Shown here: piece after piece, positions 1,788-47,614 of the stretch
Layout of the letters: each line of letters opens with the position of its first letter
How positions within the stretch are numbered: the stretch's first letter is position 1
Source of the DNA: Nostoc sp. MG11
GTDB lineage: Bacteria; Cyanobacteriota; Cyanobacteriia; Cyanobacteriales; Nostocaceae
Direction: 5' to 3'
DNA: 49,881 nucleotides
Assembly: GCF_014904695.1 (NCBI RefSeq)
Contig: NZ_JACXXN010000038.1
Coordinates: 1 to 49,881 of the forward strand
Translations under genes and position numbers: made by a program
The notes under the pieces: model-generated
Told to the model about the DNA's origin: nothing
The model's input: the letters and a program-made list of their open reading frames with translations, nothing else
The model's database searches: none

Positions 1788-1945
1788 TGCCGCTGAACAC
1801 TCCTAAAAATAGGGCGACCCGGAGACTACGCCTACCACAAGCATCCTGTATTGCTGCTACCTTCCGGTTCTGACAAGATTTAGGCGTTGAAGTCGCATAG
1901 TTCCAGGTCTATAAACACTATAACATCAAAAATCCGTGAGGTATG

Positions 1946-11877: not shown

Positions 11878-14214
11878 ATGGAGCAAGGATTAAAATTACT
11901 CATTCAACTAGTGCTAGAGTTTGCACCTGTAATTGTAACTCTAATACAAAAGCGAACGGAAGAAATAGCTATAACTAATTACCCACTTCCAAAAAAAACT
12001 CAAGAATTCCTCGAATTCGGAAATATTTCAAATCAGCTAAATAGTTCTGTGGCCAGATTTGAACAACAAAAACTCTTGCAACAGCAATTAGCCATTTACC
12101 AACGTGAGACACAAATACAAATAGCCGAACAAGAGAAAAATACAACTCTAAAGCTACCAGAAGTTAATAAAATTCTTGATAGCTGGCCCTTGAGATTATA
12201 TCCTTCACAAATTCTAGATCACACGAGCAATGAACGTAAACCACTCAAAATTTTTCTTGCTCCTCCGCAAGTTAAGTTTGACCAATTTGATCATAGGAAT
12301 GATGGAATACCAGAAATCGAGCTAATGTTAGCTGAAGGTTTACGAAAATTTATCAACAAGCATTACTCTCTCCATAGTCCAATTAGACCGACAGAATTTT
12401 TAGCAGGAGCCTGGGATAGCAAACGTTTTCATAGTGAATCTAGCATTAAGGCTCTGTTTGGCATCTTAAAAACAGAGCCAATTTTAATTTTGGAGTCGGA
12501 AAATGATGGAGATTATCTAAATTTCCGTATTGCTTATTGGGGATTGGGACAAGAAAACTATTACTACAAAACAATTGCTCGATTATCTCATAGAGAAATT
12601 GTTCAGGAGTCTGCAAAAAATCGCGCTTTAGAGTGGAAAAAAATTAGAGATGAACTGCTAACACAAGGAGCAAATTTAGAAGAAATTAACCAATTGGGTA
12701 GAGATAATGTATTTAATTTGGCACTTTTGGAAAAGGCAGAAAAATGGAAGGCTCAGGGGATTGATATTAGTAAGTTATCTTTGCAATACCAAATTAATCA
12801 TCAAGATTTTGAAAAACTTTGTCATGTGTTAACTACCTGTCACTTTCTGGTTGCTGCTTGGGTAGCAGATGTTTATCACTTAGTTCATTATGATGTACCT
12901 CCCTTACTACCAGAATTGCTGCCGAGTTTGCTTCAAAATGCTCTTGATTTACAATCAGTGCAAGCAATTATTATCGGTTATAAGCAAGTCTACCAAGCTT
13001 TAGAAAAAGAACGACGTTACTGGGTTCCAGAGTTGGCTTTGCAATTAGCTCAAAGTTTATCTCATTTACCCGATCGCTCTTGGGCGCAGGAACAGGTTGA
13101 TTACTCTATAAGCACATGGTTGGAACTACGTCAATCACCACAAGAATTTAGTAACCTCTTAGAGGCAATGCACTCACTCATCAGGATAGAAGATGAGGAA
13201 TATGTGCAAAAGCTAAGAGAATACTTTATGACAGTGGGCGATCGCCAAAGTATTCTTGATGCTGAAAAACTTTTGGATGCGATCGCCAATCTCAAACACA
13301 AACACCCTCTGGAATCTACTGATCCTAGCTACACCCTGCTCAAACATTCAAGCAAAGTTACATCTGTTGCCATTAGTCCTGATGGCGAGATTTTAGTGAG
13401 TGGGTGTGTAGATAAAATCATCAATGTATGCAATCTGAAAACTGGCAAATTACTCCGCACCATCACAGAGAATTTAGGAGAAGTTTCATCCGTAGCAATT
13501 AGTCCCGATGGAAATTTTCTCGCTGTTGGCAGTTGCGAACATCCTAAAAGTAATGTGAAAGTGTGGCATCTGAAAACTGGCAAACTCCTCCACACACTTT
13601 TGGGACATCAAAAGCCAGTAAACATTGTAGTAATCAGCCCAGATGGGCAGATTCTCGCCAGTGGCAGTAATAAAATTAAGATTTGGAATCTGCACAAAGG
13701 CGATCGCATTTGTACCCTTTGGCATTCATCCGCCGTTCAGGCGATCGCTATTAGCCCTGATGGTACAATCCTTGCCAGTGGTAGTTCTGACAATAAAATT
13801 AGGTTGTGGAATCCAAGTACAGGCGATCCCCTACGCACGCTCAATAGTCACGACGGTGAAGTAAAATCTTTAGTTATGAGTCCCGATGGACAACTACTTT
13901 TAAGCGGTAGTGCTGACAAAACCATCAAAATTTGGCATTTAATTACAGGTAAAGTCCTGCATACACTAACTGGACACTCAGATGAAGTGAAATCCCTGGT
14001 TATGAGTCCTGATGGACAAATCCTGTTGAGTGGTAGTGCTGATAAAACCATCAAAATTTGGCGTCTTTCCACAGGTGAACTACTGCAAACCCTGACTGGA
14101 CATTCCGGGACAGTAAATTCTGTTGCATTGAGTCCAGATGGTAAGTTCTTTGCTAGTGGGAGTGCTGATAAAACCATCAAAATTTGGCAGATAGTGCCAA
14201 GATTATCTCTCTGA
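11878..14214 (+). CDS. WD40 beta-propeller protein with an uncharacterised N-terminal region
   Basis: I start at ATG 11878 (778 residues); the frame extends upstream only to a TTG at 11857. Residues about 486-778 form seven WD40 blades, enough for one closed propeller, with repeated VxSVAISPDG and SGSADKTIKIW motifs. Blades 5-7 are nearly identical at DNA level, a sign of recent duplication. The first 480 residues match no domain I can name. They comprise a hydrophobic helix at 3-25, a region FLAPPQVKFDQFDH...PEIELMLAEGLRKFI...FLAGAWDSKRFH...ILILESENDGDYLNFRIAYWGLG, and an all-helical stretch. No ATPase, kinase or protease motif is visible. The 3' end overlaps the convergent gene by 38 bases. 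Confidence 0.85.
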   Translation: MEQGLKLLIQLVLEFAPVIVTLIQKRTEEIAITNYPLPKKTQEFLEFGNISNQLNSSVARFEQQKLLQQQLAIYQRETQIQIAEQEKNTTLKLPEVNKILDSWPLRLYPSQILDHTSNERKPLKIFLAPPQVKFDQFDHRNDGIPEIELMLAEGLRKFINKHYSLHSPIRPTEFLAGAWDSKRFHSESSIKALFGILKTEPILILESENDGDYLNFRIAYWGLGQENYYYKTIARLSHREIVQESAKNRALEWKKIRDELLTQGANLEEINQLGRDNVFNLALLEKAEKWKAQGIDISKLSLQYQINHQDFEKLCHVLTTCHFLVAAWVADVYHLVHYDVPPLLPELLPSLLQNALDLQSVQAIIIGYKQVYQALEKERRYWVPELALQLAQSLSHLPDRSWAQEQVDYSISTWLELRQSPQEFSNLLEAMHSLIRIEDEEYVQKLREYFMTVGDRQSILDAEKLLDAIANLKHKHPLESTDPSYTLLKHSSKVTSVAISPDGEILVSGCVDKIINVCNLKTGKLLRTITENLGEVSSVAISPDGNFLAVGSCEHPKSNVKVWHLKTGKLLHTLLGHQKPVNIVVISPDGQILASGSNKIKIWNLHKGDRICTLWHSSAVQAIAISPDGTILASGSSDNKIRLWNPSTGDPLRTLNSHDGEVKSLVMSPDGQLLLSGSADKTIKIWHLITGKVLHTLTGHSDEVKSLVMSPDGQILLSGSADKTIKIWRLSTGELLQTLTGHSGTVNSVALSPDGKFFASGSADKTIKIWQIVPRLSL

Positions 14215-25818: not shown

Positions 25819-26165
25819 ACGACCTCCTCTATTACCGCCTGTGTCCGCCAGTCAGGCAAAGGAAACCGTATTATATAAAGCTGTGATGATGGGCGCAGCC
25901 CTTTCCGCGGACGTGGTAGCGTATTCACGCATATAATTATTCTAACACAATTACGTTGTGCCCACACTCCGTATTGCATTAAAACCAGAACTGCTGTAGA
26001 TTTATGACTGTGGAATTCGTCAACAAAGTCAAGTAAAAAGAGAGACAAAATACTGATTCACGACAAAATTTTTGAAATCTAGTTGCACAAAAGACACAAT
26101 TGATGGTGGAATAGATAGGGAAGTATTTGCTGCCTTAGAATAGTAAGTATTTACCAAACACCTAA

Positions 26166-26534
26166 GGGGGTGTGGCGGAATGGTAGACGCTACGGACTTA
26201 GTAAACTGAGCCTTGAAGGAGAAATCCCTCAAGTGGATGCTCTCAAACTCAGGGAAACCTAAATCTGTTAACAGACACGGCAATCCTGAGCCAAGCCCAT
26301 CAATTTGAAGTTTTAAATTTGTGATTGTTCTGCAATCCCAAAGTCGAAATCCAAAATTGAGGGAAGGTGCAGAGACCCGACGGGAGCTACCCTAACGTTA
26401 AGTCGAGGGTAAAGGGAGAGTCCAATTCTCAAAGCCTGTGATTGCTAAAGCTATCAGGCAGTAGTGAAAGCTACGAGAGAATGAAAATCCGTTGACCGTA
26501 AAAGGTCGTGAGGGTTCAAGTCCCTCCACCCCCA
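26166..26534 (+). tRNA. trnL-UAA: tRNA-Leu(UAA), interrupted by a group I intron
   Basis: The 5' exon is 26166-26199 and the 3' exon 26484-26534. Spliced, the acceptor arms GGGGGTG and CACCCCC pair, with A as discriminator. The anticodon arm becomes ACGGA-CTTAAAA-TCCGT with anticodon TAA, and the T arm is GAGGGTTCAAGTCCCTC. The long variable arm of a type II tRNA is present. CCA is not encoded beyond the first bases. A weak hairpin (AACCCA/TGGGTT, 26562-26584) follows. Confidence 0.95.
26200..26483 (+). other. group I intron in tRNA-Leu(UAA)
   Basis: A 284-base intron inserted after the first anticodon base (U34), the site conserved in cyanobacteria and plastids. It is preceded by T and ends in G, as group I introns require. 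Conserved core pieces are visible: AGACCCGACGGGAGCTACCC-type P/Q/R/S sequence near 26370-26395 and a closing AGCTACGAGAGAATG-like segment. The variable P6b loop (about 26299-26362) is A/T-rich with degenerate heptanucleotide units. No endonuclease is encoded. Confidence 0.93.
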
Positions 26535-35880: not shown

Positions 35881-36153
35881 TTATTCAGGTATAACTCCTT
35901 TTATGCGACGGATGGGCAAATTAGCAATTAAAGCTGTCGTTCGTTGGTTGCTTTCTAGGGAGAACTCTAAGCCTTCGGTGTCAATTTCTACATAGCGACA
36001 GACTACATCTAGGATTTCTTGCCGCATTTTTTCCAACGTTTGAGGGTCTAAGTCAGCGCGATCATGGGCAATCACTAATTGCAGGCGACGTTTAACTTGA
36101 GTGCGACTGCTGTCAGGACCGCGAGAAAAAAGTCGTTCTAGAAGTTCAATCAT
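35881..36153 (-). CDS. minE: cell division topological specificity factor MinE
   Basis: A 90-residue protein that stimulates MinD ATPase and drives Min oscillation. The N-terminal membrane and MinD-binding region [20 protein letters not shown] precedes [20 protein letters not shown]-like sequence (here [16 protein letters not shown]). The dimer domain continues [20 protein letters not shown]. Length and motifs are normal. It lies 36 bases after minD. Confidence 0.96.
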
Positions 36154-36189: not shown

Positions 36190-36996
36190 TTAAACAATCT
36201 TTGTCCACAACAACCTTCGCAGACGGGCGAAGATGTTGTCCTGGGACGAGTCGATCTCAAGAAATTGGATCGATTCCCCTTCCAATCTACGAGCAATGTT
36301 TTCAAAGGCTGTGGCAGCTAAAGAGGGAGTATCCGCTAATACTAAAGGTTCGCCGCGATTGGTAGAGACAATAACGCGCTCATCGTCAGGGATCACCCCA
36401 ATTAGGGGTATTGCAAGAAGTTCCTGAACATCTTGTACTGACATCATATCATTCGCCTGCACCATTGAGGGTCTGATACGGTTAATTATTAAATGAACAC
36501 GCTTGATGCCTTGTGCTTCTAGTAACCCGACTACTCGGTCAGCATCACGAACTGCGGAAATTTCTGGCGTGGTTATAACTAGGGCTTCTTTAGCTGGGGC
36601 GATCGCATTTTTAAACCCATTTTCAATCCCAGCAGGGCTATCAATGATTACGTACTGATACTTTTGTGCCAGTGCATTCACTAATAACTTCATCTGTTCG
36701 GGAGTGACTGCATCTTTAGAGCGGTTTTGTGCTGCTGGTAAAAGTACAAGGTTAGGTTGTCGTTTATCTTTCACCAAAGCTTGTTCTAAGCGGCACTCTC
36801 TGGCTAGAACTTCCACCGCAGTATAGACGATGCGGTTTTCCAGCCCTAGCAGCAAATCCAAATTTCTCAGACCAAAATCCGCATCAACTAAGGCAACTTG
36901 ACGCCCTATTTTGGCTAAAGCCATGCCTAGATTTGCCGAAACTGTGGTTTTACCCACGCCTCCTTTGCCGGAGGTAATTACAATAATGCGAGTCAT
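36190..36996 (-). CDS. minD: septum-site determining ATPase MinD
   Basis: A 268-residue member of the ParA/MinD ATPase group. Deviant Walker A SGKGGVGKTT lies at residues 9-18; switch I includes DADFGLRNLDLLLGLE and Walker B YVIIDSPAG. The C-terminal amphipathic membrane helix is NIFARLRRLLWTKIV. MinD recruits MinC to the membrane and recycles through MinE. It sits between minC and minE on the same strand. Confidence 0.97.
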   Translation of the reverse strand: MTRIIVITSGKGGVGKTTVSANLGMALAKIGRQVALVDADFGLRNLDLLLGLENRIVYTAVEVLARECRLEQALVKDKRQPNLVLLPAAQNRSKDAVTPEQMKLLVNALAQKYQYVIIDSPAGIENGFKNAIAPAKEALVITTPEISAVRDADRVVGLLEAQGIKRVHLIINRIRPSMVQANDMMSVQDVQELLAIPLIGVIPDDERVIVSTNRGEPLVLADTPSLAATAFENIARRLEGESIQFLEIDSSQDNIFARLRRLLWTKIV

Positions 36997-37163: not shown

Positions 37164-38234
37164 TTATGGCTCTTGATTAATCCTAGTTAATTGGTTTCTA
37201 GAAAAATCAGTAGCTCTAGCGATGCGAATTCCTTGGGGCGTAATATGTGCCACTTCTGGAGAAAACTGCATCGGTAATTTCTCTGGTGCTCTAGCTACGG
37301 CATCTGCGATCCGCAATTGGGTTGGTTCCATTTGCAGGGCCATAATCAGACACTCGCGATTGCCTGCGGCACCAGCGTGAGCAATGCCACGTAAGCGACC
37401 CCAGACTAAAATATCTCCATCTGCAACTACAATACCACCTGGGTTTAAATCTCCTAAGAGAATTATTGTACCAGGATGACGAATTTCTACTCCAGAACGC
37501 ACCGTCATTTCGAGGTAGAGAGCATCTGTTAGGGGTATAGCAGCAGCTTGGGATTCGGATCTCAGGGAAGTTCCTGGCTGTAGTTGTTCTACAGAATAGC
37601 CAGATGTGACGGCTGCGATCGCAGTTTGACGACGACTAGTCGAAACAGATGTTAGCTGAAGTTGGACTTCGCTTAAGGTTTCGGCGAGTTCTTGTAGTTG
37701 TCTAGCATCCACCAAGCGATCATATGCCATCAGATGCACTATGGTGTTAGGCGATCGCAAGCGATCCCCAGCATTCAAACGGTGCTTCATCTGTTGCCAA
37801 ATATTAGACCAAGTAAGTTCTGAGGCAGGTACTTGAGATTCTGTTGGCAAAATTAATAATAGTCGTCCCTCCTCACTTTTTAACTGGACTTGAAGATTGT
37901 GTACCTGATGCTTGAGTAATGGTGACTCCGTAGGATTTGAATCAGTCAGGATAAAGTTTGATGCTGCATCAGAAAAGGCGGGATTTGAATCTAAATCCGG
38001 GTTAGTAGGATTTGATTCTACATCGGGAGGTGCAGCGTTTGATTTTAAATAGAGGAGAACAGATTTTAGCTCTGCATCTGGAAGAATAGAATCTGATTCT
38101 GCATCAGTAACGCCAGAATCAGAATCTACATCAGAAGTAGAATTTAACTCTATATCAGAAAGGGTAGAGATTGATTCTGCATTAGGATGTGCAGAATTTG
38201 ACTCTAAATTGGGTATAGCAGAATCAGAAGTCAT
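37164..38234 (-). CDS. minC: septum-site determining protein MinC with an N-terminal tandem-repeat extension
   Basis: A 356-residue MinC, an FtsZ-ring inhibitor recruited by MinD. I start at ATG 38232-38234; the frame continues to a TTG 12 codons upstream. Residues 3-100 are an unusual acidic repeat (see next entry). The MinC N-terminal domain follows from about 110 (VQLKSEEGRLLLILPTES). The C-terminal beta-helix that binds MinD spans about 235-345, with TVRSGVEIRHPGTIILLGDL, NPGGIVVADGDILVWGRLRG and AHAGAAGNRECLIMALQ. Core length is normal; only the extension is odd. The gap to minD is 167 bases with short GAAGTAT repeats. Confidence 0.93.
   Translation of the reverse strand: MTSDSAIPNLESNSAHPNAESISTLSDIELNSTSDVDSDSGVTDAESDSILPDAELKSVLLYLKSNAAPPDVESNPTNPDLDSNPAFSDAASNFILTDSNPTESPLLKHQVHNLQVQLKSEEGRLLLILPTESQVPASELTWSNIWQQMKHRLNAGDRLRSPNTIVHLMAYDRLVDARQLQELAETLSEVQLQLTSVSTSRRQTAIAAVTSGYSVEQLQPGTSLRSESQAAAIPLTDALYLEMTVRSGVEIRHPGTIILLGDLNPGGIVVADGDILVWGRLRGIAHAGAAGNRECLIMALQMEPTQLRIADAVARAPEKLPMQFSPEVAHITPQGIRIARATDFSRNQLTRINQEP
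37935..38228 (-). repeat. 27-base tandem repeat array inside minC (11 units of 9 residues)
   Basis: Eleven consecutive units follow the pattern S-x-S-x-x-x-D/N-x-E, for example SDSAIPNLE, SNSAHPNAE, SDSGVTDAE, SDSILPDAE and SNPTNPDLD. Ten are 27 bases and one (LNSTSDVD) is 24, all in frame. The encoded stretch is acidic, Ser/Asn/Pro-rich and likely disordered. The units are diverged, not a fresh expansion. Confidence 0.85.
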
Positions 38235-38393
38235 GCAGCACCAGCCAAAAGACGCAAATACACCGAGCAATTACCAATATTTAGATTAGTTGCATTCTGC
38301 AACCACATCCTCACCCTAGGAAGTGATAAGTAGTAGTTCAGAATGATCATCTTCACTTTTAACTCAGCGAGAAGTTGGATCGGAGCGCGAAGT

Positions 38394-38418
38394 CTGAGCG
38401 GAGGAAACCTCCGCTCAG
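38394..38418. repeat. 11-bp perfect hairpin at the 3' end of the DUF1537 gene
   Basis: CTGAGCGGAGG and CCTCCGCTCAG pair around AAA. It overlaps the last bases of the minus-strand gene ending at 38415. A larger outer pair, TTGGATCGGA at 38375 and TCCGATCCAA near 38440, encloses it. It may serve as terminator; similar GGAGAAACCTCCGC sequence appears near 39940. Confidence 0.6.
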
Positions 38419-39794
38419 AACTTTGTAAGAGAGGCTTCCTCCGATCCAAACTTCGGTGACTCGTGACTCAGGACTGTTTTAGTTAACCTTTGATAAATTG
38501 TGCCCAAAGCATCAGCATCACCGACATTACCAGGAAACAGCACCACGGGCAAATTAGGAAACTGGGAATGATCAGATGGCGTTAGCACCATCGAACAACC
38601 AGCTAATATTTGACCGAGTAAGCGTGCTGAAGTTAAGGCAAGACCAGTACTTAAGACATCATTTGAAGTAATGCCACCTTTGCTGATTAAGAACCCTATA
38701 TCAGATGGTAAGCCGCGCACAATATCCATCAATAAACCTGAAACCTTTGCCCCAAAATCCAACCGTGTCTTGACATCCTTGAAAGATAGTTCTTGGCGGC
38801 TAGTATAAACTACTGGTGTTTTGCCAGCATCGTGTACCGCCTTTGTACTTTCCAGGATCTCGGTTAGCAGTGTAGCAGATTGATTTGCCCCATCATCAAG
38901 TAATCGCGCTACATTGACTTCAATTCCCACGGTTCCTTCAACTCGCAATAGTGCCTCTAACTGCTGAGTCGTCTTTTTCACGTGGGAACCAACTATAATC
39001 GCACCTGGTTTACCTTGTCGTACATACTGCACCATGTTTTCGGCGGCAATAGGTTGAGGAGGTAACGCCGCTAAAGCCGTTAAAATACTGGCAGCACTGC
39101 GAAACAAAAAGCGTTTCCCTTGAGTCGCCGCAGCTAGCACGTCCACTGCAAAGCGATTGAGATCGGTTTGAGTTTCACCATCTACAACAGCGCACTGATT
39201 TTTAGTGAGTTTCAGCAGACGTTCCAGGCTACCAGCGCGAATGTCAGCTAGTAAAAATCTTTCTACAGCCTCCGCACTAATTCGCCCTTGAGTCTTTTCT
39301 TCTACATACTTTGGCAAATAACTGTGATGGTAGCCGAAGACAGAATCACGGGCAAACTCAGTTTCATGCACTGGTTTTGGCACACCATCGATAATCAAAT
39401 AATGTATGCTGTCGCGGGTGATACGCCCACCCTCAAAAAATGCTGGGACGAGAAAATGAGCGTCAAATAGCCCGAGTTCTTGGGCGATCGCATCTGTTTC
39501 AATCGGGTAATGTCCCCGCAAAGTAGAATCAGAACGGCTGACAATCAAAAAATCGTCGATTCCTTCGGCATTTAAGGCGATTTTTAGGTTCTGGCAAACT
39601 TCTTTGGTAACAGACGCGGCTGACTCTGGAGGTAAGGATCTGGTATTGGTCAGCACAAAGAAAATTGGCGAATCATCTCGTAACCCAGTACGTAAAGTAT
39701 CTACATCCCAGTGCATCAGCAGCAAGCAGCTGTGGACTGTTTGAGAACCTGTAGGGTCATCATCCAGAACAATGATTTTTGGTTTGTTGGTCAT
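38415..39794 (-). CDS. four-carbon acid sugar kinase family protein (DUF1537)
   Basis: A 459-residue protein. The N-terminal domain opens KIIVLDDDPTGSQTVHSC, the acidic substrate-binding loop of the family, followed by FVLTNTRSLP and SRSDSTLRGHYP, which contact the acid sugar. The C-terminal nucleotide-binding domain has GAIIVGSHVKKTTQQLEALL near 265 and GGITSNDVLSTGL near 375. Known members phosphorylate four-carbon acids such as threonate, erythronate or denatured relatives. No aldolase or PdxA2-like partner is adjacent, so the substrate is open. It starts at ATG 39792-39794. Confidence 0.88.
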   Translation of the reverse strand: MTNKPKIIVLDDDPTGSQTVHSCLLLMHWDVDTLRTGLRDDSPIFFVLTNTRSLPPESAASVTKEVCQNLKIALNAEGIDDFLIVSRSDSTLRGHYPIETDAIAQELGLFDAHFLVPAFFEGGRITRDSIHYLIIDGVPKPVHETEFARDSVFGYHHSYLPKYVEEKTQGRISAEAVERFLLADIRAGSLERLLKLTKNQCAVVDGETQTDLNRFAVDVLAAATQGKRFLFRSAASILTALAALPPQPIAAENMVQYVRQGKPGAIIVGSHVKKTTQQLEALLRVEGTVGIEVNVARLLDDGANQSATLLTEILESTKAVHDAGKTPVVYTSRQELSFKDVKTRLDFGAKVSGLLMDIVRGLPSDIGFLISKGGITSNDVLSTGLALTSARLLGQILAGCSMVLTPSDHSQFPNLPVVLFPGNVGDADALGTIYQRLTKTVLSHESPKFGSEEASLTKF

Positions 39795-47560: not shown

Positions 47561-47578
47561 GTTACAAATTCTTCCCTT

Positions 47579-47614
47579 GCTCCCCCTGCTCCCCCTGCTC
47601 CCCCTGCTCCTCTT
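47579..47614. repeat. nine-base tandem repeat GCTCCCCCT
   Basis: Three perfect GCTCCCCCT units and a decayed fourth abut the 3' end of the cyclophilin gene. It is strand-asymmetric: C-rich here, G-rich on the coding strand of the neighbour. Confidence 0.75.

Follow-up and report, generated by a model that had tools for sequence, protein, structure and literature searches.

Short linear motifs in disordered linkers are known from several division proteins, and the C-terminal peptide of FtsZ on its linker is one example. The FtsZ CCTP is named in the accessible portion of a 2020 review, which also states that Min function has been worked out only in unicellular Synechococcus, leaves the role in Anabaena open, and gives alr3455 as minC of Anabaena sp. 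PCC 7120 (PMC7766704). The available sections of a second study describe an N-terminal peptide of FtsZ that is conserved in heterocyst formers, and report weak two-hybrid signals between MinC and FtsZ (PMC6175996). At the level of titles and abstract openings, mostly outside the subscription literature, we found no description of the MinC tail reported here. Here, we report on minC in a window of 49,881 nucleotides, by which we mean the whole stretch of Nostoc DNA that was analysed. Relatives were sampled mainly from Nostocaceae, which in the taxonomy used we take to be the heterocyst formers.

The assignment of this gene as minC, first made from the sequence alone, is borne out by profile matches. 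The product matches the NCBIfam MinC equivalog NF001778 over residues 99–349 (E 2.3e-102, 341.9 bits against a cut-off of 315) and Pfam MinC_C (PF03775) over residues 242–335 (E 4.6e-30, 104.1 bits against 33.2). Five of the other six models score far under their cut-offs, and TIGR01222 narrowly so (91.1 versus 95.25). Pfam MinC_N gives no match in the minC product, and the AlphaFold2 model contains an alpha/beta domain at residues of about 117–217. The genes minC, minD, and minE follow each other in this order on the minus strand (Table 1). The upstream neighbour of minC (38415–39794, minus strand) encodes SBD_N and NBD_C domains of the four-carbon acid sugar kinase type. Elsewhere, the window holds a bacterial small SRP RNA (1813–1909, minus strand, RF00169, 56.6 bits) and, at about 26165–26533 on the plus strand, a group I intron (RF00028 at 26190–26447, 76.5 bits) that splits tRNA-like exons. 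By eye, we take these exons to be tRNA-Leu(UAA)-like; ARAGORN did not call a split tRNA gene at this place. A group I intron in tRNA-Leu(UAA) is a classic cyanobacterial intron.

Table 1. Features of the min locus, in coordinates of the window
Feature	Coordinates	Strand	Description
minC	37164..38234	(-)	356 codons; ATG 38234-38232; from ORF list
N-terminal tail	37893..38234	(-)	residues 1-114; net charge -17; predicted disordered except one helix
Eleven-unit array	37935..38228	(-)	in frame at minC start; ten 9-residue units and one 8-residue unit
Candidate docking motif	38037..38099	(-)	residues 46-66, ESDSILPDAELKSVLLYLKSN; profile match E 5.7e-12
Predicted helix within motif	38037..38078	(-)	residues 53-66, AlphaFold2
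MinC core	37164..37892	(-)	N-domain region and MinC_C; alpha/beta then beta-rich in model
Conserved 5' leader	38235..38250	(-)	TTTTGGCTGGTGCTGC; adjoins ATG; column conservation, 102 distinct Nostocaceae sequences
minD	36190..36996	(-)	downstream of minC, same strand; TIGR01968 E 5.2e-123
minE	35881..36153	(-)	downstream of minC, same strand; TIGR01215 E 3.1e-27

The minC product begins with a tail that contains eleven short units: SDSAIPNLE, SNSAHPNAE, SISTLSDIE, LNSTSDVD, SDSGVTDAE, SDSILPDAE, LKSVLLYLK, SNAAPPDVE, SNPTNPDLD, SNPAFSDAA, and SNFILTDSN. The sequence-only reading had described eleven in-frame units with a period of 27 bases, one of them 24 bases long (LNSTSDVD); its coordinates are exact, and the periodicity lies far beyond that of shuffled sequences. 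Over residues 1–105, lag 9 yields 31 identities and lag 18 yields 19, and the remaining lags from 1 to 29 give at most 12. The value of 31 was not reached at lag 9 in 20,000 shuffles, nor at lags 5 to 30 in 5,000 shuffles. On the DNA, lag 27 gives 154 matches as compared to 92.5 ± 7.9 in 5,000 codon shuffles, none of which was as high. Tandem Repeats Finder at a score of 50 did not call the array because the copies are old; identity between neighbouring copies in the window is 72% at best. The seventh unit, LKSVLLYLK, departs from the pattern S-x-S-x-x-x-D/N-x-E proposed earlier and is part of a conserved motif. The tail had also been described as acidic and disordered over about 98 residues. 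Its net charge of −17 and the predicted disorder agree with this description, but the low-confidence region reaches to about residue 112 in the model. As a query against the genome, the tail matches only itself, bar one antisense chance match (E 0.18), and the idea of a genome-wide element was dropped. Two other tandem repeats occur in the window: a 126-base repeat at 13856–14189 with a consensus that by eye resembles WD40-type repeats, and the nine-base repeat CCCCTGCTC at 47574–47610 with about four copies.

A MinC match was found in 215 of 217 Nostocaceae genomes. Out of 117 distinct genomes that were fetched, 112 MinC proteins were read directly; the core pattern missed five further loci, and three second hits fall in genomes already in the count. 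The tails of these 112 proteins are 55 to 401 residues long (median 114) and always carry a negative net charge, from −5 to −57. A 9-residue period is clear in 74 of them (z > 4) and falls below z = 3 in 29. Among the named relatives are Komarekiella, Nostoc, Fischerella, Chlorogloeopsis, Scytonema, Tolypothrix, Calothrix, and Nodularia. Since such tails are common in Nostocaceae, the array is part of a widespread extension of MinC and not, as first supposed, a peculiarity of this protein. Most of 26 MinC proteins read at their starts outside the family pass from start to core within a few dozen residues. Four of the 26 have long tails of different composition that lack the motif described below, and some other MinC frames outside the family are likewise long; three of the four tails, from class-level relatives, are rich in Ala, Pro, Ser, and Thr and represent a second, unrelated kind of extension.

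The preserved part of the tail is not the repeats but a motif of roughly 20 residues, made up of SDSILPDAE, LKSVLLYLK, and the following SN (residues 47–66), which the sequence-only reading had counted as two ordinary units. Its consensus is S-I-[ILP]-P-D-x-E-[LV]-N-S-V-L-x-Y-L-[KQ]-S. The motif occurs in 104 of the 112 Nostocaceae proteins by a looser pattern and in 100 by a strict one. By eye it is absent from seven, and one further case is doubtful. It has therefore been lost or become unrecognizable in some lineages, and is not essential everywhere. Among 61 distinct versions, P7 and E10 are each kept in 59, S13 in 58, V14 in 60, Y17 in 55 (F in five more), and L18 in 58. Because most of these columns are constrained by the search pattern, the counts exaggerate their constancy, and the limits of the motif likewise derive from sequences selected with a pattern that partly predetermines them. 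Among 80 named loci selected by similarity to the full protein, two of which were not read, 75 contain the motif pattern and three more differ by one altered end residue. The motif is also retained in 22 of the 29 tails without a clear 9-residue period (19 by the strict pattern, three by eye), and forms a conserved island within a variable, predicted-disordered tail.

A profile built from 28 hand-picked rows extends this survey to whole genomes. It matches in 190 of 217 Nostocaceae genomes and 49 of 56 genera (E ≤ 0.05), including the five genomes with loci missed by the core pattern. Two of the 27 genomes that lack a match are uninformative because they are also without a MinC match, and the MinC match of G108 is weaker (E 2.1e-72). 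Among 317 other Cyanobacteriales genomes, eight gave weak matches, as compared to 61 of 71 Nostocaceae in the same draw. By coordinates, three of the eight lie away from MinC, and five fall in frames of 1977, 21, 452, 23, and 31 residues. Given this background of eight in 317, a few of the 190 matches are expected by chance. None of the 26 non-Nostocaceae starts contains the motif. Within the present genome, the motif is unique to minC; the notion that other proteins share it was rejected, as the profile finds only chance matches elsewhere (E 3.65 to 5.74). In solved structures, the motif search hit a bacterial secretion control protein twice, over 14 residues each (E 0.024 and 0.027), which we took as chance.

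Substitution rates were estimated within one genus, from 19 sequences whose tails are equally long. In this sample, dN/dS is 0.13 for the motif and 0.08 for the MinC core, 0.56 for the units before the motif, and 0.39 for the stretch behind it. Judged by these codon substitutions, the motif evolves almost as slowly as the core within this genus. In 36 of 38 sequences of the genus, the motif lies 41 residues from the start, and in 29 of 38 its distance to the core is 54, 63, 72, or 81 residues. Neighbouring copies with 90% identity or more are present in 14 of the 112 tails, with a period of 27 bases in nine, 54 in four, and 30 in one, and all 14 of these recent duplications lie behind the motif. 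Duplication behind the motif and a mostly constant distance ahead of it indicate that the repeats slip while the motif stays. Slippage had been raised from the sequence alone, and the relatives with 27- and 54-base duplications agree with it. The tail is a clear illustration of how a single pair of units in a repeat array can become conserved as the adjacent units go on slipping. Could the whole tail have arisen by neutral slippage, as a disordered extension that is not under selection and binds nothing? The duplication of whole units and the wide range of tail lengths, with repeats that evolve loosely, are what this explanation would predict, and for the repeats alone it may well be correct. 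It does not account for the low dN/dS of the motif, for the retention of the motif in tails without the 9-residue period, or for the helical spacing of its conservation, and we consider it unlikely for the tail as a whole.

These comparisons indicate that the array stretch is very probably translated. Relatives have this stretch as an open frame without stops, in frame ahead of the MinC core, and in 25 of 25 loci from the genus Nostoc this frame opens one or two codons ahead of the ATG, which makes an upstream in-frame start impossible there. The bases flanking the ATG are conserved in register, with T at −15 in 90, at −6 in 90, and at +6 in 101 of 102 sequences; the ATG itself, present in 102 of 102, is no evidence for the start because the alignment was anchored on it. 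An untranslated stretch with a MinC start near the core would be hard to reconcile with the coding constraint on the motif, with the open frames, and with the in-register conservation of the leader and the opening codons around this ATG. We dropped this explanation as extremely unlikely; the sequence-only reading had named, as evidence for it, a start behind the stretch in all close relatives together with the absence of any transcript or peptide covering it, and the relatives instead have in-frame tails. The leader is present as a single copy in the window. The sequence TTTTGGCTRGTRYTGC before the ATG is conserved in Nostocaceae, and the first 20–25 codons of minC are low in synonymous divergence. 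Within the one genus, no other of 323 windows of 20 codons has as little synonymous divergence as the minC start, and dN/dS of the first codons, 0.89, is to be read against a very low dS of 0.047 as compared to 0.293 in the core. The leader and first codons are under constraint at the level of nucleotides, perhaps with a role in translation initiation.

AlphaFold2 modelled the full-length monomer with a pTM of 0.35 and with pLDDT below 50 at residues 1–7, 9–48, and 69–112. The one helix predicted in the tail has a block mean pLDDT of 66–69. When the tail was modelled alone, from an alignment of 51 tail rows picked for carrying the motif, the sole helix spanned residues 53–65 with a block mean of 76–78. 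The tail is therefore predicted to be disordered, as the sequence-only reading had supposed, bar one helix, which falls in the motif and is modelled at moderate confidence (pLDDT 66–78) amid low-confidence sequence. A period of 95–100 degrees per residue gives the strongest conservation signal along the motif (permutation p 0.003), which fits a helix with one face left free, and the variable positions 9, 12, 16, and 19 share one face of such a helix. In four examples, the helix has a net charge of 0 to −3, a moment of 0.22–0.48, and a mean hydrophobicity near zero. This charge suggests a protein rather than a membrane as the partner. The conserved hydrophobic positions 11, 14, 15, and 18 would suit an amphipathic membrane-binding helix, but the charge, hydrophobicity, and moment just given, the strongly acidic tail, and the polar character of the conserved S13, E10, and Y17 would not, and this possibility appears very unlikely to us. 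The motif might also dock on MinC itself, either on the core or on the second subunit of a dimer, and act as an internal switch or an oligomer clamp. Tail and core always form one chain, a flexible tether is well suited to intramolecular docking, and the motif occurs nowhere else in the genome. However, the helix reaches only moderate confidence in the full-length monomer model, and omitting the core does not lower this confidence, although the two models derive from different alignments. We regard docking on MinC itself as quite unlikely.

What then may this motif do? We think it probable that the tail is an expandable acidic tether that presents a helical docking motif to a partner protein. 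The long, acidic, disordered tail would work as a flexible tether, and the motif would be loose when alone and turn helical on docking into a groove of the partner. This protein may belong to the cell-division machinery or the Min system of heterocyst-forming cyanobacteria, and binding could hold MinC near the division site or tune its activity as an inhibitor. The 9-residue repeats would then serve as a length-tolerant spacer, possibly grown from an ancestral first unit such as MTSDSALPEIE, as found in non-Nostocaceae MinC. More tentatively, this private docking peptide of Nostocaceae MinC could couple the Min system to the division or septal machinery of multicellular, differentiating filaments; in this proposal two array units gave rise to the peptide, which was then fixed, and the rest remained free to slip. 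Should the motif prove to be a docking site, its 20 residues would serve as a handle for isolating the partner of MinC from filamentous cyanobacteria and for separating recruitment of MinC from inhibition by MinC.

FtsZ is one candidate to consider, as the motif might imitate or read its C-terminal peptide or the N-terminal peptide of heterocyst formers. In this genome, the C-terminus of FtsZ reads GLDIPDFLRNRNKPRN, a hydrophobic-Pro-Asp element followed by a helix-like stretch that loosely resembles ILPDAEL..YLK. Joint loss of the motif and the N-terminal peptide was examined in 28 loci, 23 of which were readable by pattern; G177 has no FtsZ match. The N-terminal peptide is retained in the seven motif-less Nostocaceae genomes compared (six read, one assigned by profile and genus), which leaves this partner candidate unsupported, and a related peptide occurs in some motif-less genomes outside the family. 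The C-terminus of FtsZ is altered in g47 and unaltered in g20, g33, and g14. According to the available sections of the earlier study, interactions with MinC were weak and more significant with FtsZ that lacks the N-terminal peptide (PMC6175996). Imitation or recognition of either FtsZ peptide is thus highly improbable in our view. A presence test for the DivIVA-like Cdv3 was uninformative on the partner, as none of 23 genomes passed the Pfam DivIVA cut-off.

As compared to other cyanobacterial-type MinC proteins, the protein described here shares the core, the MinC_C domain, and the minC-minD-minE gene order, and it differs by a motif that is absent from the 26 non-Nostocaceae starts. Solved relatives match only its C-terminal half. 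The N-terminal peptide of FtsZ, as described in the accessible sections of the report cited above (PMC6175996), is likewise a lineage-conserved, additional N-terminal peptide on a division protein, and occurs in the same genome. In contrast to the MinC motif, it has an unrelated sequence and no repeats, and the two are not lost together. The FtsZ C-terminal peptide, too, is short, hydrophobic, and conserved, and lies within or at the end of a linker that is variable and disordered; unlike this peptide, the MinC motif is N-terminal, sits on the inhibitor MinC, and is embedded among 9-residue repeats.
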